Shown in pieces: positions 23 through 33,620 of a stretch of DNA of 33,803 nucleotides. Source of the DNA: a virus; the IMG/VR virus record IMGVR_UViG_3300017773_000062, positions 1 to 33,803 of that record. The stretch is one strand, 5' to 3'. The notes beneath the pieces are model-generated. The model saw only the letters and a list, made by a program, of their open reading frames with translations, did not search any database and had not been told where the DNA came from. Made by a program: the position numbers and the translations under genes. The first letter of the stretch is position 1. Each line of letters starts with the position of its first letter.

Positions 23-799
23 ATGGCAACTTTAGAAGATCAACTGGCACTTGAGTTACAGATGTGCCAAGCAGGTGAGGAAAGATACGACAAACAGGTG
101 GCCGCACTCACTGATAAGGGTGTGGAGAGCAGGGCGCAACACGGGAAAGCCATCATTGGTAACGTGTTGACCCCATTGTCCAAGGCCATCGCAGAGTTTT
201 GCACAGGTGAGACTTCATCGAACCGCAGTATCGCCTACGGGAAGATCAAGCACCTAGACCCCGACCGATTGGCAGTGCTGTCCTTACTAGGTGCTATCGA
301 CAAGATCAGTCAGCGAGTCCCTCTGATGGCAGTGGCACGAACCATCGGTCTGTATGTCGAGGATCAAGATAGAATTGAGAAGTGGTTAGAAGGCGACAGG
401 GATGTCGCAACTACCATCGTAAAGATGGCTCAGGAGAAAACCACATACCGCCACCGCAGATCAGGGGTCATTCATAAGATGAATAATGATGGGTACTACG
501 AAACGTCATGGACTAATGACGAGCGTATACACGTTGGCCTGAAGATGATTGATCTGATTATCACCAACACTGGTGTACTAGAATTGGTACGGGTCAGGAC
601 ATCACGGACTAAGACTACCACCTACCTTGTGGCACAGGAGTCAACACTGGATTGGGTAAAGGGATTCCACGCATCCCATAGGTCTGCCCGTCCACGCTAC
701 GCTCCCTGCGTGATACCTCCGAAACGATGGGAGGGTTTGTTTGGGGGTGGATACTACATTGATGAACTTAACAATCTACCACTGGTGAGGATGCACTAA
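23..799 (+). CDS. T7/SP6-type RNA polymerase, N-terminal fragment
   Basis: This is the N-terminal promoter-binding domain of a single-subunit phage RNA polymerase, encoded here as a separate 258-residue protein. It aligns with the N-terminus of SP6 and T7 polymerase: a start like SP6 (MATLEDQLALELQ), an IHVGLKMIDLI segment, and the signature YAPCVIPPKRW..GGGY. It stops just after LVRMH, where T7 polymerase continues with LVRTHSKKAL, at roughly T7 residue 300. I chose the ATG at 23 because GGAG (13-16) lies 6 nt upstream and the product then begins where SP6 polymerase begins. An in-frame ATG at 11 has no visible ribosome site. The stop overlaps the next start (TAATG at 797-801). The catalytic domain follows, so the two proteins probably act as one enzyme. 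Confidence 0.9.
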   Translation: MATLEDQLALELQMCQAGEERYDKQVAALTDKGVESRAQHGKAIIGNVLTPLSKAIAEFCTGETSSNRSIAYGKIKHLDPDRLAVLSLLGAIDKISQRVPLMAVARTIGLYVEDQDRIEKWLEGDRDVATTIVKMAQEKTTYRHRRSGVIHKMNNDGYYETSWTNDERIHVGLKMIDLIITNTGVLELVRVRTSRTKTTTYLVAQESTLDWVKGFHASHRSARPRYAPCVIPPKRWEGLFGGGYYIDELNNLPLVRMH

Positions 800-2475
800 T
801 GAGAAAGAGAACTACTGAGTATTTCACAGAGTTAGAGAAGTGCGATATGACTGAGGAGTTGAAGTGCGTGAATGCGCTACAGGAAACACCTTGGCAAATC
901 AACAAGCACGTTCTGGCAGTACTGCGTCAGGCATGGGACAGTGGACAGACTTGGGGAGGGCTACCTGCAAGGGATGATGTCCCGCTACCTGTCTACCCGT
1001 TTGATTGTGAACCTAGTGAGTTAAGCCCTGCACAGCAGGAGGAGTTTAAAGCATTTAGAAAGAAACGTGGAGCAGTCCACGCTCACAATAATACGACAAT
1101 GAGTTTGCGTATCTTGATTGAGCGTACCATCCAAGTCGCAGAGCAGTACGCCAATGAGGTTGAGTTCTTTTATGTCTGGCAGTTGGACTTCAGGAGTCGT
1201 AAGTACCCTATGGAATCATTCTTGTCACCGCAGACGGGTGATGCAGGTAAGGCACTGCTCACATTCGCATACGGAGTAGAGATCGAGTCACCAGAGGATG
1301 CCAAGTGGTTAGCTATCCAAGGTGCGAACGTCTACGGCAATGACAAGGTGACGCTAGAGGATCGTGAGTTGTTTGCCTACATGAACACTGAGATTGCACA
1401 GGCGGTAGCTGATGATCCGTTCAGCGAGACTATCTGGTTGGAAGCTGATAAGCCGTGGCAGTTCTTAGCGTGGTGCTACGAGTGGGCAGGGTACACGAGA
1501 GCCAGAGACTCAGGAGAGAACTACGTTACCACACTACCCTGCTCTGCTGATGGATCGTGTAACGGCTTACAGCACCTGTCAGCTATCCTACGGGACAGGG
1601 AGGGTGGTAGAGCAGTCAACCTGACCAAGACAGAGTTACCGCAGGACATCTACGCTGATGTAGCTATCAAGGCCATGGATCGTATCCGCAAGGATGCCCA
1701 AGACCCTGAGAACACGATGGCACACCAGTGTTTGCAGTTTGGTATCACCCGTAAGGAAACTAAGCGATCAGTAATGATCGTACCGTATAGCGGTACACGA
1801 TATGCCTGTCGGGATTACGTCATGGAAGCATTGAAGGAACGAGTAAAGAAGCAGGGACATAACCCTTGGGGTGACGATCTATATCTGGCGGCAAACTATA
1901 TGTCTAAACACATATGGGAAGCTATCAGTGACAGTATAAGTTCAGCACGTATTGTCATGGATTACATCAAGTCGGTTGCTGAAGTGTACGCCAAGCACAA
2001 GCAGGTCATGCAGTGGTACACCCCCACGGGTATGCTGATCTGGCAGTGCTATAGCGACATGAACAAACGTAGGATCAAGACCGCTATCAATGGGTCTGTC
2101 GTGAAACTCAACTACCATTCACAGATAGATGACACTGTAAGCCGTTCTAAGACGTTATCAGGGGCATCCCCCAACATGATACACAGTCTAGACGCATCGG
2201 CTCTGACGATGACAGTGAACCGCTGTGTGGATGTAGGGATTACTGACTTTAGTATGGTGCATGACAGCTACGGCACTCAGTCACCCTATATGCCCACGAT
2301 GGTGAACATCATTCGTGAAAGTTTTGTAGATATGTACGAGCAGAACGATGTCCTACAACAATTGTACGATCATGCGGTGAAGGTTTTACCTGAAGGCGCA
2401 GAGATTCCCAAGCCACCGGAGAGAGGTGACTTGAGTTTACGAGAGGTATTGCAGTCTGAGTACTTCTTTTCCTAA
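799..2475 (+). CDS. T7/SP6-type RNA polymerase, catalytic fragment
   Basis: This carries the thumb, palm and fingers of the phage RNA polymerase (558 residues). Visible active-site elements are D251 in ADGSCNGLQH (T7 D537), R318, K322 and Y330 in ITRKETKRSVMIVPY (T7 R627, K631, Y639) and H488-D489 in VHDSYGT (T7 H811-D812). The promoter-specificity loop should lie near residues 411-440. The C-terminus SEYFFS matches the aromatic foot of the family (T7 DFAFA). The start has its own ribosome site, GGTGAGG ending at 790, and overlaps the stop of the upstream fragment by one base. Nothing appears to be missing between the two pieces. It would transcribe middle and late phage genes. Its stop codon lies inside a repeated 18-bp promoter-like motif. 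Confidence 0.95.
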   Translation: MRKRTTEYFTELEKCDMTEELKCVNALQETPWQINKHVLAVLRQAWDSGQTWGGLPARDDVPLPVYPFDCEPSELSPAQQEEFKAFRKKRGAVHAHNNTTMSLRILIERTIQVAEQYANEVEFFYVWQLDFRSRKYPMESFLSPQTGDAGKALLTFAYGVEIESPEDAKWLAIQGANVYGNDKVTLEDRELFAYMNTEIAQAVADDPFSETIWLEADKPWQFLAWCYEWAGYTRARDSGENYVTTLPCSADGSCNGLQHLSAILRDREGGRAVNLTKTELPQDIYADVAIKAMDRIRKDAQDPENTMAHQCLQFGITRKETKRSVMIVPYSGTRYACRDYVMEALKERVKKQGHNPWGDDLYLAANYMSKHIWEAISDSISSARIVMDYIKSVAEVYAKHKQVMQWYTPTGMLIWQCYSDMNKRRIKTAINGSVVKLNYHSQIDDTVSRSKTLSGASPNMIHSLDASALTMTVNRCVDVGITDFSMVHDSYGTQSPYMPTMVNIIRESFVDMYEQNDVLQQLYDHAVKVLPEGAEIPKPPERGDLSLREVLQSEYFFS

Positions 2476-8267: not shown

Positions 8268-8593
8268 ACGATGCCACTCCTCAAGAGTGGAACAAAGTGA
8301 CTGCAAAGCACACAACTAACGGAACTGTATGGACAAAAGGCTCTGACAAGAAAGAGCCAGATGTAGTCAACAGTCCTGCCCACTACACCAACGGTGAAAT
8401 AGAAACCATAGACTACATTGTCGATGTCTTAGGTGTATGGGGTGCGATTGAGTACTGCCACGGTAACGTCCTCAAGTACACAGGCTCACGTATGTTTAAC
8501 AAAGGCAAGCCAGTACAAGATGCCAAGAAAGCAGTCTGGTACTTAAACAAGATTATAGAACTAATAGAAGGTAATAAGGATAAATTCATATGA
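8243..8593 (+). CDS. DUF3310-like protein (T7 gp1.7 C-terminal-like)
   Basis: A 116-residue protein whose second half, PAHYTNGEIETIDYIVDVLG..AIEYCHGNVLKYTGR-like and AKKAVWYLNKIIEL, is the DUF3310 pattern. That domain forms the C-terminal part of T7 gp1.7, a nucleoside monophosphate kinase acting on thymidylate and guanylate derivatives. The first 40 residues are polar and unrecognised. Placed directly before ribonucleotide reductase, a role in nucleotide supply is plausible but not shown by sequence. Start is supported by GGAGGTG at 8231-8237. The stop overlaps the next start (ATATGA). Confidence 0.8.
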   Translation: MGARRKSINDATPQEWNKVTAKHTTNGTVWTKGSDKKEPDVVNSPAHYTNGEIETIDYIVDVLGVWGAIEYCHGNVLKYTGSRMFNKGKPVQDAKKAVWYLNKIIELIEGNKDKFI

Positions 8594-10482
8594 CAAAAGT
8601 AAAGATGGACGAGTACCAATCATTCATACACAAAAGCCGATACGCCCGATGGCTTGATGACAAGGGCCGTAGAGAAACATGGGAAGAGACTGTACAACGG
8701 TATGTAGACTTCTGGGTTAACAGGGGGCAGATTGACAGTAAAACTGCCAAGAAAATGTATACTACAATATACAATCTTGAAGTAATGCCTAGTATGAGAA
8801 ACTTAATGACCGCAGGAGAGGCGTTGGATAAAGACAACGTAGCAGGGTTCAACTGTAGCTACCTGCACATTGACTCACCCCGTAGTTTCGATGAACTCAT
8901 GTACGTACTGATGTGTGGCACAGGTGTCGGGTTTAGTGTCGAGCGTAAGTTTACTGACAAGTTACCATGCGTAGCTGACAGCTTCCACCCCACCGATACT
9001 ACCATCATTGTAGGTGACAGTAAGATAGGATGGGCTTCAGCCTTTAGAGAACTGGTAGCCATGTTGTATGCAGGTAAGATACCGCAGTGGGATGTCAGTA
9101 AGGTACGTCCCGCAGGAGCAAGGCTTAAAGTGTTTGGTGGACGAGCCAGTGGACCAGAGCCGTTGGTTTCCCTATTTGAGTTTGCCGTCAAGTTATTTCA
9201 AGGTGCAGAGGGCAGGTCACTAACAACCCTAGAGTGCCATGACTTGTGCTGTAAGATTGCAGAGGTAGTCGTAGTCGGTGGTGTTAGACGCTCCGCATTG
9301 ATCTCTCTCAGCAACTTGACTGACAACCGTATGCGTAAGGCCAAGTCAGGCGCATGGTTCTTAGAAGAAGGTCAGCGTGGCCTAGCAAACAACTCTGTGT
9401 GTTACACCACTAAGCCAGACTTTGCTGACTTCCTTGCAGAGATGCAATCACTACACGAGAGTAAAGCAGGTGAGCGTGGGTTGTTCAGTCGCCCTGCGGC
9501 TCAGAACATTGCGGCACGTAACGAGCGTAGAGACAGTTCACATGACTTTGGTACGAACCCATGCTCTGAGATCATCCTACGCAGTAACCAGTTCTGTAAT
9601 CTTTCGGAGATTGTGGTCCGACCAGATGATGATTTAGCTTCGTTAAAAAGAAAGTGTGAGATGGCGGCAATCATCGGAACACTACAGGCTACCCTAACAG
9701 ACTTCCGCTATCTTCGTTCTATCTGGAAGAAGAACACAGAGGAAGAAGCACTATTAGGTGTAAGCATGACAGGCATTATGGATCATTACCTACTTGGCAA
9801 CACATCACCTGACTTACAGAAGTGGTTAACGGAGTTACGTCAAACTGCTATTGATACTAACAAGGAGTGGGCATCTAAACTGGGCATTGCACAGTCTGCG
9901 GCTATCACATGCGTTAAGCCTAGCGGAACAGTGTCTCAGTTAGTGGATAGTGCCAGTGGTATACACCCAAGGTTCTCTAAGCAGTATGTACGCACCGTCA
10001 GGTCTGATAAAAAGGACCCCCTAGCACGATTTATGCAGGACAACGGGTTCCCTTGTGAGCAGAACATCACTAGCCCAGAGGGTTTGGTGTTTAGCTTCCC
10101 TGTACGATCACCTAAAGACGCAGTAACGGTTAAAGATGTAGGTGCAATGCAACAACTAGAGTTGTGGAAGGCATATCAGGACTTCTGGTGTGAACATAAG
10201 CCATCCATCACCGTCTATTACACAGATGACGAGTTCTTAGACGTATGTTCGTGGATTTGGAAGAACTTTGATATGTGTTCAGGCATCTCACTACTGCCTT
10301 ACAGCGATCATGTGTACCCACAAGCCCCATACACTGACGCATCTGATGAAGTACTCGCTATTTTAGAGGATCAGATGCCTAAAGATGTGAATTGGGAAGG
10401 TTTGAAAGCCTATGAACAGGAAGATAACACTATCGGTAGCCAAGAACTAGCCTGTACGGGCGGGGCTTGCGAGATCGTATAA
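8590..10482 (+). CDS. nrdJ: Class II (adenosylcobalamin-dependent) ribonucleotide reductase, monomeric type
   Basis: This 630-residue enzyme reduces ribonucleotides to deoxyribonucleotides. It follows the monomeric Lactobacillus leichmannii RTPR type: SRYARWLDDKGRRETWEETV near the start, GVRRSALISLSN, and NPCSEIILRSNQFCNLSE, giving N323, thiyl C325, E327 and C336 in RTPR spacing (C408, E410, C419). C89 (FNCSY) corresponds to C119. The C-terminal shuttle pair C622-X4-C627 (CTGGACEIV) is present. Cobalamin dependence follows from the family. No small radical-generating subunit is encoded nearby, as expected for class II. At 630 residues it is shorter than the roughly 740-residue Lactobacillus enzyme, probably lacking part of the regulatory region. 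It sits between the replication operon and the virion genes and ends at a strong terminator. Confidence 0.95.
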   Translation: MTKVKMDEYQSFIHKSRYARWLDDKGRRETWEETVQRYVDFWVNRGQIDSKTAKKMYTTIYNLEVMPSMRNLMTAGEALDKDNVAGFNCSYLHIDSPRSFDELMYVLMCGTGVGFSVERKFTDKLPCVADSFHPTDTTIIVGDSKIGWASAFRELVAMLYAGKIPQWDVSKVRPAGARLKVFGGRASGPEPLVSLFEFAVKLFQGAEGRSLTTLECHDLCCKIAEVVVVGGVRRSALISLSNLTDNRMRKAKSGAWFLEEGQRGLANNSVCYTTKPDFADFLAEMQSLHESKAGERGLFSRPAAQNIAARNERRDSSHDFGTNPCSEIILRSNQFCNLSEIVVRPDDDLASLKRKCEMAAIIGTLQATLTDFRYLRSIWKKNTEEEALLGVSMTGIMDHYLLGNTSPDLQKWLTELRQTAIDTNKEWASKLGIAQSAAITCVKPSGTVSQLVDSASGIHPRFSKQYVRTVRSDKKDPLARFMQDNGFPCEQNITSPEGLVFSFPVRSPKDAVTVKDVGAMQQLELWKAYQDFWCEHKPSITVYYTDDEFLDVCSWIWKNFDMCSGISLLPYSDHVYPQAPYTDASDEVLAILEDQMPKDVNWEGLKAYEQEDNTIGSQELACTGGACEIV

Positions 10483-10528: not shown

Positions 10529-10699
10529 ATGACTACCAAGACAGTTAAAAAGCCAAAAACACCCCCAGAAAGCGACCAAGACCTACTATGTCTCACCCAT
10601 CTTTTCACCGCTTACTACGCTAAATCAGGTAATACTGAGGTTGCGCTCCAGAATTGCGTACATACCCTTGGAATCCTAAAACAAGCGTGTAAATCCTAA
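10529..10699 (+). CDS. Small hypothetical protein (56 aa)
   Basis: The ORF encodes MTTKTVKKPKTPPESDQDLL followed by CLTHLFTAYYAKSGNTEVAL and ending KQACKS. AGGAG at 10517-10521 lies 7 nt before the ATG, and the ORF neatly fills the space between the terminator and the second 18-bp promoter candidate, whose first bases include its stop codon. The start is Lys/Pro-rich and the rest looks helical with three cysteines. I do not recognise a family. Confidence 0.65.
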   Translation: MTTKTVKKPKTPPESDQDLLCLTHLFTAYYAKSGNTEVALQNCVHTLGILKQACKS

Positions 10700-10712
10700 T
10701 GGCCCCCTAATG
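10695..10712 (+). promoter_or_regulatory. Candidate phage RNA polymerase promoter, copy 2
   Basis: Second exact copy of CCTAATGGCCCCCTAATG. It lies 11 nt before the small gene at 10724 and upstream of the gp7.3-like and portal genes, where T7-like phages carry late (class III) promoters. Bases after the repeat also partly agree with copy 1 (CAG versus TAG). Transcription would begin close to the start codon, so the exact +1 is uncertain. Confidence 0.5.
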
Positions 10713-23400: not shown

Positions 23401-24254
23401 CAACTGCAATGACTTTGTTAGAGCAACCACAACTGCAAGGTGTCTTAGGATTAGTAGAAACATTTACTGGTGATACAGGCACTGTTGCAAGTCGGTTAGA
23501 AAAGACAGGGGCCAAAACTCTATCAAGTTTCGCTCCTTTCTACCGTATCTATGAAGAATTAGTCGGATACGGATTCTTGGATCAAGCTAATATATACATA
23601 CCAGAGATGCATCAGATCACTCAGGCTTTGACACAAAAGCCTTCTGCTCTCGGATTGCTAAATGACGGGTGGAACCCTTCTGGTGATATGAAGCGCAACC
23701 CGATTACAGGTGAAGCCTTAGAAAAGGATAACCCTATTAACTCGTGGTATATCCCCGATGGTGCGCCTAATCATAACCGTGACATATCAGACGAAGATAA
23801 GGAAGTGTTCTATGAGATGAACCGTTTAGGTATGGCTGTACCACAACCGAGTTATCGTAGTAGTCACTTAGGTAATGTAGACATGCGTAAGTTTTATGTC
23901 AAAGAAGGTGTAACTAATCGCTCGGTCTACGATGTTTATCAGGAGTTAGTTGGTAAGGTCAAACTAGAAACTCCACAAGGGCCAATGACTCTAATGGAAA
24001 ACTTACACTTCACTATGAATACTGACTCTTACATTTACGATGGTACTGAAACTTTCAAACATGTTGGTGTTGCAGTACAAAAAGGCACTAAAGATAAAGT
24101 CTTAAAGTCAGTTATAGATCGCTACAGAATAGCGGCTCAACTAGAACTGAAGAGTATGTTAGGGCCTGACCATCCAATCTATGAACGAGAGATTAAGGCA
24201 AACGATGCCAAGACACGTTTTGAAGCTAATCAAATTTTTCAAGGAGGTAACTAA
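20463..24254 (+). CDS. Internal virion protein, gp16-like, without visible transglycosylase domain
   Basis: At 1263 residues this is the largest protein, close to T7 gp16 (1318), the core component that leads DNA into the cell. T7 gp16 begins with a soluble lytic transglycosylase domain (TESRF...GPLGMMQF). Here the first 130 residues ([35 protein letters not shown]) show no such motif. Gly/Ala-rich hydrophobic stretches occur near 150-260, around 610-640 and near 900-920, and could be membrane-inserting. The rest is largely helical. The C-terminal part has [19 protein letters not shown] is the ribosome site. The next start overlaps its stop (TAATG). Confidence 0.87.
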
Positions 24255-25333
24255 TGGCTTATAGCTACGTGCAATATACAGCAAATGCCACAACACAAAC
24301 ATTTGCAATTACATTCCCTGTAGATACCCCTAGTGAGATTGTAGTGTTTAAAAACGGGGTACAAGTACCGTCAGCGGAGTTAAGTGTAACCACAGCCTCC
24401 ATTTCCTTTGTAGGTTACTACCCTTTATCTGGTGATGTTATTAGGATCGTCAGGGTAACAGACCTATCTACAAGAGCAGTTGACTTCCAAGCAGGTTCAA
24501 TGATTAGAGAGGCTGACTTAGATAATTCTGCACAGCAGGTGTTTAAGGCCGTACAGGAAATCAAAGATGAAGTTGATAGAGGTATAACCTACAACTATCA
24601 AGGTCATATAGATGCTAACAACGGTAGGCTTATTAATGTTGCTGACCCTGTAGCTGACGATGATGCCGCCACGAAAGGTTGGGTCAACACATCTTCAGTA
24701 TCAACACTAGCCGATGCAATATCTGCTAAGAATGATGCAGAGACTGCGGCAACCAACGCATCCACCTACTTAGGTCAATTAACTAATCTTAACATTACCT
24801 ATAATGAGTTAGACCTTTCAATCAGTAGTACAGGCTATGTAACGTATGATGTTAATACAGGCACAGCCGCCTTCTACGTACCCGCAGGGCCTCAAGGCCC
24901 TCAAGGGTCACAAGGGCCGACAGGTAACACTGGCCCCACTGGTGCAACTGGTGGTGCAGGTCCAACGGGTCCTCAAGGCTCTCAAGGGCCAAAGGGTGAT
25001 ACTGGTTCAGCAGGTCCGACAGGTTCACAAGGCCCCACTGGTGCTACAGGTGCTACAGGCCCTCGTGGTTTAATTGGCCCTACAGGTCAAACAGGAGCCA
25101 CGGGTGCTACAGGTGCTACAGGCCCTCAAGGTTCTACAGGGGCGCAAGGCCCCACAGGAAACCAAGGACCCACGGGAGCGCAAGGTAACATGGGCGCAAC
25201 TCCACTTGGTCTTGCTTTTGGTAGAATGCAGATCACCAGTGCAGGAATACTACAGATGGAATACTACGGCAGTGCTAATGACAATGACTTTAGCATTAAC
25301 TCTTCTGGCATATTAACAGTAACAACGGTATAA
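24254..25333 (+). CDS. Tail fibre with T7 gp17-like N-terminus and collagen-like shaft
   Basis: A 359-residue fibre protein. Residues 1-150 are the T7-type attachment domain ([47 protein letters not shown]-like [18 protein letters not shown]) that binds the tail. After a short helical part come about 35 Gly-X-Y triplets (residues 212-316) rich in GPT, GAT and GPQ, giving a collagen-like trimeric rod. The last 40 residues are a small cap. There is no large receptor-binding domain, so the protein is probably an adaptor that carries other fibre proteins such as the next gene product. Confidence 0.9.
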
Positions 25334-25338
25334 AAATT

Positions 25339-26883
25339 ATGGGAACAATCAATATAGGTAAAGTACGTCAATCCTTTGAAGGTACGTACAGCGCAAGCAC
25401 CGCTTACGAAGTGCTAGATACAGTACTTCACAATGGTGAAAGTTACGTGTGCATCCAAGATACAACAGCAGGGACTGCTCCAACCAATACTACTCACTGG
25501 CAGAAGATTTCAGCTAAAGGTGACACTGGTGCAACTGGTGCTACAGGAGCAACTGGAGCCGCAGGTGCTGATGGTGCTGATGGCGCAGACGGTGCTGACG
25601 GTGCTACAGGACCTCAAGGTCCCCAAGGACCAATCGGTAACACAGGCGCAACAGGTGCTACAGGTGCTGATGGACCTCAAGGGCCACAGGGTCTCACAGG
25701 GCCTACAGGTCCTCAAGGTCCCGCAGGTGCTGATGGTGCTGACGGGCCTCAAGGTCCCGCAGGATCGTCTGATACTGCCGCACAAGCGTTAACAAAGATA
25801 CTGACCGTAGATGGTTCAGGTTCAGGTTTGGATGCTGATAAAGTTGATGGCTTAGAGGCAAGTCAATTCTTACGCTCTGATACGTCAGATGCGACCCTTG
25901 GTATGATTACTGCTCAAGGCGGTATAAAGACAGATACAATTCAATGTAGTACTGGACAGCAGTTAGTCCTAAACGCAGGTGAATCTGCGTCCCAAGCTAC
26001 AGGACAATCGGCTGAAAACGTATATATCAATGCTGAAGCAGGTTTAATAGTATCTTCACATCCTAATAACTGGACAGGAGGTTGGTCAGGACGATGGACT
26101 ACCACTATAGGTAACAATCAAGGTGATAGTTATTTCCCTAATGACATTTATGTAGCCGATCAAATTATCCACACAGGTGATACTAATACTTATATGCAGT
26201 TCAGTGCCGCTGATACGTGGCGAGTGGTTACTAACGGTATTCAACGCCTTTCTGTCAATAACTCTCTAGTGGCAATTGGAAGAGATGTTAATATTGATGC
26301 AGGTCAGAACTCAACCTTAAATATCATCTCTGATGATAATGGTAAATCCACAATTAATCTTTACGGAGGAAGTCAAGGAACAGGGATGGTGTTTGTTGGT
26401 CAATCTTCCAGCTATGGAGGGGGCATTGAGTACAATGGTGATAGTTCTCCTGCTACTTCTGGAGCCGGATCAGATCAAATTGCTTTATTTAGAAGAAATA
26501 GCAACACTGTCTCTTGGACTGCAAAGAATAGTGTTAACAACAACGATTGGAAATTCCGAGGCAACGTCACCGCCTACGCATCTGACGAGCGTTTAAAGGA
26601 TAATGTAACTACGATTGATAATGCTTTAGATAAAGTATCTCAACTACGTGGTGTAACCTATGCTTGGAAAGACGATGTAGAAGAAAAAGGCTTCTTACCT
26701 TCCATGAAGCATGAGACAGGTGTTATTGCTCAAGAGGTGCAGAAGGTTATACCCGATGCGGTTGTCCCTGCTCCATTTGATAATGAGTATCTAACAGTTC
26801 AACACGAAAAGATTATTCCCGTTTTAATCGAAGCTATTAAAGAACTTAAAGCAGAGGTTGAACAACTTAAAGGAGGTTCGTAA
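25339..26883 (+). CDS. Collagen-like tail fibre/spike with C-terminal S74 intramolecular chaperone
   Basis: A 514-residue protein. Residues 14-57 ([34 protein letters not shown]) resemble a small carbohydrate-binding (CBM5/12-type) module. Residues 61-144 are about 28 Gly-X-Y triplets. A beta-rich region follows (about 160-410). The C-terminus is a peptidase S74 chaperone: [46 protein letters not shown]. The catalytic pair should be Ser415 and Lys420, and cleavage before Ser415 would release a domain of 100 residues after trimer folding. It starts 5 nt after the first fibre gene and likely holds a receptor-binding part. Confidence 0.9.
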
Positions 26884-32366: not shown

Positions 32367-32528
32367 CTAAGGTTCCCCTATTAGTGGTGTGTTTATACAT
32401 ACATACAATAGATAAGCAGTGGTGGTAGGTCACTAAGGATACTAAAGTATACTTAAAGATGGCTAGATTTCCATAGGATACCACCCCCACACCCCCACAT
32501 TAAAGATTCTTGACGGTACTGAGGTATC

Positions 32529-32812: not shown

Positions 32813-32828
32813 TCTTTACATGTAAAGA
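32813..32828. promoter_or_regulatory. 16-bp palindrome TCTTTACATGTAAAGA, copy 1 (candidate operator)
   Basis: A perfect palindrome of 16 bp found three times in the window and nowhere else that I can see. This copy is 55 bp (centre to centre) upstream of copy 2, in front of the early promoter. Such sites usually bind a symmetric dimer, for example a repressor or activator. No such protein is identified here. Confidence 0.6.
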
Positions 32829-32867: not shown

Positions 32868-32883
32868 TCTTTACATGTAAAGA
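32868..32883. promoter_or_regulatory. 16-bp palindrome, copy 2 (candidate operator)
   Basis: Identical to copy 1. It lies 22 bp upstream of the -35-like TTGTGT at 32906, a normal place for an activator or a repressor site close to the early promoter. Confidence 0.6.
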
Positions 32884-33604: not shown

Positions 33605-33620
33605 TCTTTACATGTAAAGA
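33605..33620. promoter_or_regulatory. 16-bp palindrome, copy 3 (candidate operator)
   Basis: Third identical copy of TCTTTACATGTAAAGA, beginning at the base after the stop codon of the early gene and 43 bp before the next start. As RNA it could also fold into a short hairpin between the two genes, but the identical copies in front of the promoter favour a protein-binding site. Confidence 0.6.

Follow-up and report, generated by a model that had tools for sequence, protein, structure and literature searches.

T7 RNA polymerase serves as the model of a one-chain polymerase; its N-terminal domain binds and melts promoters and moves at the change from initiation to elongation. A phage-encoded single-subunit RNA polymerase (RNAP) is the hallmark of the Autographiviridae (PMC10134795). 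A two-piece enzyme has been described in phage N4, whose RNA polymerase II consists of two polypeptides, gp15 and gp16, that are encoded by adjacent genes and match T7 RNAP in regions without overlap; the thumb and the DxxGR motif are in gp15, and 24 heterodimers were counted among more than 500 homologues in a 2015 survey (PMC4496689). T7 RNAP also tolerates division into fragments that are expressed together, with breaks such as those after residues 67, 179 or 601 that are named in the text of PMC4299498. Here we describe a locus that very probably belongs to a further type, namely a T7-type polymerase split once into two chains throughout a marine T7-like clade, with co-assembly, activity, tail function and translational coupling predicted from the sequences.

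The window, a 33,803-nucleotide stretch of IMG/VR virus record IMGVR_UViG_3300017773_000062, opens with two overlapping ORFs, which the first-pass annotation had recognized as joined by TAATG and which can be read directly from the sequence. ORF1 extends from 23 to 799 and ends with TAA at 797-799, ORF2 runs from the ATG at 799 to 2475, and the stop of the N-half and the start of the C-half share one base. An in-frame ATG at 11 is a possible alternative to the ORF1 start at ATG 23. The features of the locus are as follows.

13-16, + strand: GGAG before ATG 23, seen in the sequence.
23-799, + strand: N-terminal subunit gene of a T7-type RNA polymerase, 258 aa, promoter-binding domain plus conserved tail (Pfam RPOL_N, PHROG 414 positions 2-265, T7 alignment).
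784-790, + strand: ribosome-binding site GGTGAGG for the second subunit, located within ORF1 (anti-Shine-Dalgarno duplex -6.4 kcal/mol).
797-801, + strand: TAATG junction, seen in the sequence and identical in five relatives (L001, L002, L003, L004 and L010).
799-2475, + strand: C-terminal catalytic subunit gene, 558 aa, with thumb, palm, fingers and specificity loop (Pfam RNA_pol, PHROG 414 positions 265-816, catalytic residues, predicted fold).
2471-2488, + strand: putative phage-specific promoter CCTAATGGCCCCCTAATG, 18 bp, immediately following the polymerase gene (repeated exactly at 10695; position conserved in relatives).
10695-10712, + strand: second putative promoter copy, upstream of the structural genes (exact repeat of CCTAATGGCCCCCTAATG).
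32367-32380, + strand: third, weaker promoter-like site CTAAGGTTCCCCTA (pattern CTAANGNNCCCCTA, 3 matches against 0.48 expected, the pattern having been chosen after the site was seen).

The two ORFs divide one polymerase between them. ORF1 matched RPOL_N with an E-value of 4.7e-14 and ORF2 matched RNA_pol with 2.6e-102, and together they cover the 816 positions of PHROG 414 (RNA polymerase) from 2 to 265 and from 265 to 816. Alignment to T7 RNAP placed the last residue of ORF1 at H300 and the cut between residues 300 and 301, in agreement with a joint proposed at about residue 300. ORF1 matches T7 residues from about 34 to 300, and about the first 29 T7 residues are absent from the N-half. 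ORF2 begins directly after the H300 equivalent, with about four extra residues relative to unsplit relatives; this continuity and the PHROG coverage bear out the earlier statement that no coding sequence was lost at the joint. The ribosome site attributed to ORF2 was likewise found, 8 nt before its ATG. As had been claimed for the catalytic residues in general, all tested equivalents (T7 D537, K631, Y639, H784 and D812, together with the DxxGR motif) are present, and they reside in ORF2 and in the C-halves of relatives. T7-like single-subunit polymerases, including those that mark the Autographiviridae, are one polypeptide, whereas the polymerase of the window, and that of every member of the split clade, is encoded as two.

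The TAATG junction recurs in the five related contigs named above. In a first survey, IMG/VR was searched with an alignment of the C-half and the best 80 of 536 relatives were kept; all 81 loci with both halves were split. The survey was then widened by searches for more distant relatives and of bacterial genomes, yielding 238 distinct C-halves, of which 109 are split at the same point, 117 belong to one ORF and 12 lack the N region. Duplicates were dropped only if the C-half DNA was identical, and near-copies therefore remain among these counts; 24 split representatives differ by more than 22%. The polymerase is one ORF in all 34 bacterial-genome matches and in the genes of LUZ100, BB8, YIMV22061, HTVC168P and S28-C10. 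Among the named phages examined, which are part of 2570 matching phage records, none had a polymerase split at T7 300/301, and the phage records searched held no cultured and no named phage of the split clade; all split sequences are thus metagenomic assemblies. Two further candidates were set aside. Salmonella phage vB_SalM-LPST153 has a T7-like polymerase in two overlapping ORFs, but the break lies elsewhere, at C-half position ~250-295, and is of a different and possibly artefactual kind, which may reflect a frameshift error or be a genuine split of a second type. For MedDCM S42-C7, the N-half match lies under no annotated gene but runs towards the end of a linear record and so carries no information on a split.

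The split sequences have one origin in the trees. FastTree, run on 236 sequences, united every split sequence in a single group (support 1.0) that contained no unsplit sequence, and IQ-TREE, run on 105 representatives, bounded the split group (24 sequences) by a branch with an SH-aLRT of 100, corresponding to one change of state. The sister of the split clade in the IQ-TREE analysis consists of unsplit viral contigs (L234, L264, L236, L277 and relatives), which carry ...IPMIKTRNREYLEEM... or a similar unbroken stretch at the homologous place. The first-pass annotation had argued for an originally continuous gene from the peptide DALMRK, which is encoded in the second frame just upstream of 799 and resembles T7 KALMRY. 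The continuous ancestor is shown by the phylogeny; the peptide is no evidence for it. Its likeness to T7 is a coincidence, as those bases encode the conserved ORF1 ending RMH-stop. Moreover, in the family alignment, TEYFTELEKCDM of ORF2 pairs with KGYLEELAEHDM of unsplit LUZ100, so that the MRK of ORF2 lies upstream of the T7 LMR. The ancestor of this large, integrase-bearing group of marine T7-like phages would accordingly have had an ordinary one-piece RNA polymerase gene, and a single event would have cut it at T7 300/301, immediately downstream of the conserved P-R-Y-x-P-C-x-I-P-P-K-x-W...G-G-Y stretch and immediately ahead of the thumb.

Although the cut point is constant, the junctions themselves vary. 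Among the 109 split sequences, the halves most often overlap by 4 nt (class -4, 70 sequences, overlap ATGA) or by 1 nt (class -1, 20 sequences, overlap TAATG or TGATG), followed by +3 (9 sequences), and classes +1, +11, +14 and +19 also occur. In four contigs, inserts of 211, 307, 921 and 975 nt with whole ORFs inside separate the halves, each large insert resting on one or two contigs. The 211-nt insert (L006) has a 70-aa ORF, the 975-nt insert (L017) several small ORFs, and the 921-nt insert (L020) a C5 DNA methyltransferase gene at L020:270-1208 (PF00145 2.8e-14, PHROG 363 1.9e-67); the 307-nt insert is in L018. Another contig, L021, shares the C-half N-terminus MQKNSKEY with L020 and has a plain TAATG at the joint and no methyltransferase, which indicates that the methyltransferase gene sits at a joint that tolerates it. 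Calculated Shine-Dalgarno strength at the C-half starts averaged -6.1 kcal/mol (n=109; -6.2 in 29 thinned sequences). The corresponding means were -2.1 for ATGs inside these genes and -1.2 for the homologous position in the 117 unsplit genes. Nine contigs of one subclade (L151, L154, L161, L171, L172, L174, L178, L188 and L189) have both halves in the same frame, with stop-GTT-ATG between them and an AGGA-type site. The overlaps of 1 and 4 nt make translational coupling plausible; it cannot be a requirement, given the relatives whose halves are set apart by a gap or by complete ORFs.

These data bear on the ways in which two ORFs might arise without two subunits. Taken by itself, the break in the window could be put down to a single-base error of sequencing or assembly, or to an inactivating frameshift that arose recently in one genome. 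The same junction, however, is found in contigs from other metagenomes, with a dS to the window of 0.11-0.24 for L010 and above 1 for L004 (dN at most about 0.06), and 109 distinct sequences of one clade have equivalent splits. Such an error or recent frameshift, which had been proposed as alternatives, is excluded for the clade, and for the window its probability is negligible. Because a large phage group has its polymerase cut at the same point, the two genes of the window are a real inherited arrangement. Alternatively, programmed recoding, by a -1 frameshift or by read-through of the stop, could join the ORFs into one full-length polymerase, so that the two would be separate in appearance only. 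Most junctions do share one frame relation (-1), and the nine same-frame contigs have only a stop and one codon between the halves; in that subclade, read-through could in principle give some fused polymerase. Yet no common slippery sequence is visible among the junctions listed, and all three reading-frame relations are found (gaps of -4, -1, +11 and +14; of +3; and of +19, +211 and +307), so that a single recoding mechanism is unable to bridge all junctions. Four contigs have entire ORFs between the halves, and the strong Shine-Dalgarno site at the second start, missing in the unsplit homologues, would be unexpected for a recoded gene. Raised earlier as an option for the window, recoding is excluded for the clade by the varied frames and inserted genes, and we regard it as very improbable overall.

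Two further readings accept separate proteins and differ in what the N-half does. It might be a separate regulator, leaving the C-half alone as a working polymerase to which promoter specificity has shifted. The C-half does contain the whole catalytic fold and the specificity loop, and other genes can separate the halves. The N-half, however, retains the full domain including its conserved tail, lies directly or closely upstream of the C-half in all contigs holding the region, and evolves under selection comparable to that on the C-half, dN/dS being under 0.1 for both in pairs with usable dS, a sign of purifying selection; T7, furthermore, requires its N-terminal domain for promoter binding and melting. 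We therefore give this reading little credence. Somewhat less improbable, though still unlikely, is an N-subunit that acts as a dissociable, sigma-like initiation factor, binding and melting the promoter with the C-subunit and then leaving, or being exchanged or titrated. In that case the phage would control its polymerase by the amount of N-subunit, for example in the choice between lysis and lysogeny, as opposed to the one-chain refolding of T7.

The naturally split, two-polypeptide polymerase proposed by the first-pass annotation is supported by its clade-wide conservation, the varied junctions, the inserted genes and the ribosome sites at the second start. Structure prediction is consistent with this arrangement. 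AlphaFold2 modelled the C-half alone with a mean pLDDT of 91.8 and a TM score of 0.88 to T7 RNAP (3e2e_A) over its length, and the N-half with medium confidence (pLDDT 75, 24 sequences as input) and a TM score of ~0.6 to T7 RNAP chains. The best-conserved stretch of the N-half (0.74) is its tail, residues 222-258 (37 residues, T7 ~267-300), of which parts 222-232 and 238-243 have a pLDDT below 50 in the single-chain model. A tail that is conserved yet modelled with low confidence on its own fits an interface, and the simplest reading is that it docks on the C-half. According to the mechanism we favour, the halves would be made as two proteins, presumably from a single transcript. Translation of the C-half would start at a Shine-Dalgarno site of its own, in most cases by termination-reinitiation where stop and start overlap by 1 or 4 bases. 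The two chains would then assemble non-covalently into a T7-type polymerase, in which the C-subunit would provide the whole active site and the specificity loop. The N-subunit, docked through its conserved tail of ~37 residues, would perform promoter binding and melting; since the T7 N-terminal domain has this role and moves, a separate protein would do so here.

Candidate promoters for such an enzyme accompany the polymerase gene. The 18-bp motif CCTAATGGCCCCCTAATG occurs exactly twice in the window, against 0.04 occurrences expected by chance. The same motif pair is present in L004 and L003 at a spacing of ~8.1 kb, the copies differing from the L004 version at 0-3 positions. In more distant members, CTAAAGTtgaCCTATAG[CG] follows the polymerase gene and recurs 8-8.5 kb downstream on the same strand; the reversed control pattern gave zero matches. 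The motif is nearly unchanged only in the nearest relatives of the window, whereas distant ones keep the position and the CTATAG core, not the sequence. This core resembles the T7 promoter TAATACGACTCACTATAG (PMC10134795). Separately, the perfect palindrome TCTTTACATGTAAAGA has exact copies at window positions 32813-32828, 32868-32883 and 33605-33620 (0.11 expected within 3 mismatches) and four exact copies in the L004 contig, at 254, 642, 1842 and 39126; these may be operators for a repressor, either the MarR-like one of the phage or another.

The genes of the window follow a T7-like order on one strand, with RNAP, DNA replication genes, structural genes and terminase. Its terminase (58.8% identical to those of LUZ100 and MedDCM S45-C18) and its capsid (45.8% to that of LUZ100) both have their closest counterparts in the integrase-bearing T7-like phages, and LUZ100 also has the closest polymerase among the phage records searched (39.7%). 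In L004, a 39.3-kb contig 91% identical to the window over both halves, the polymerase is preceded by a MarR-like regulator, a tyrosine integrase and a tRNA-Leu, a combination also found in phages of this kind such as LUZ100. The tRNA-Leu (L004:3926-4012, anticodon taa) lies between the integrase and the polymerase gene and may be the attachment site, by analogy with LUZ100 and S28-C10, where a tRNA-Leu is also near the integrase. A marine origin of the group is suggested by its relatives, such as MedDCM and Roseobacter phage kin, and we take the IMG/VR sample numbers to be marine. The window also contains two tail-fibre-like proteins with long collagen-like Gly-X-Y repeats (24254-26883) and, among the replication genes, a 630-aa ORF (8590-10482) that appears ribonucleotide reductase-like by eye.

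A whole marine clade with a two-chain enzyme, cut unlike that of N4, would mean two or more splitting events in nature, provided that the origins are independent, which the cut points suggest. Such a clade offers natural material for split-polymerase tools and raises the question of how the refolding from initiation to elongation proceeds when the mobile promoter-binding module is a separate protein. Annotation pipelines may overlook or misname such two-piece polymerases.

Among known phages, LUZ100, HTVC019P, BB8 and MedDCM S28-C10 resemble the split clade in gene order: a tyrosine integrase gene immediately precedes the RNAP gene, and those for ssb and endonuclease I follow it. A MarR-like regulator and a tRNA-Leu are likewise common to LUZ100, S28-C10 and L004. 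Unlike in the split clade, the polymerase of all four phages is one ORF. In the literature we found natural splits of the N4 type and engineered splits only. The laboratory-split T7 RNAPs are engineered, and the cut points named in the text of that report, which has five seams, differ from 300/301 (PMC4299498). Similar to the window, N4 RNAPII (Schitoviridae) uses two adjacent genes for one T7-type polymerase. The N4 cut, however, falls after the thumb and DxxGR and before motif A, with gp16 (404 aa) starting near T7 456 in our alignment, whereas the split clade is cut before the thumb, leaving DxxGR in a C-half that comprises 558 aa in the window. The N4 system also comprises the cofactors gp1 and gp2 and a giant virion RNAP; in the 33.8-kb window, which is part of a genome, no ORF exceeds 1263 aa. 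Because the split clade nests among one-piece Autographiviridae-type enzymes (in a tree without N4), its origin looks independent of N4. With the assembly and activity predicted here, it is a second natural two-chain T7-type polymerase, and it lies inside a group defined by a single-subunit enzyme.
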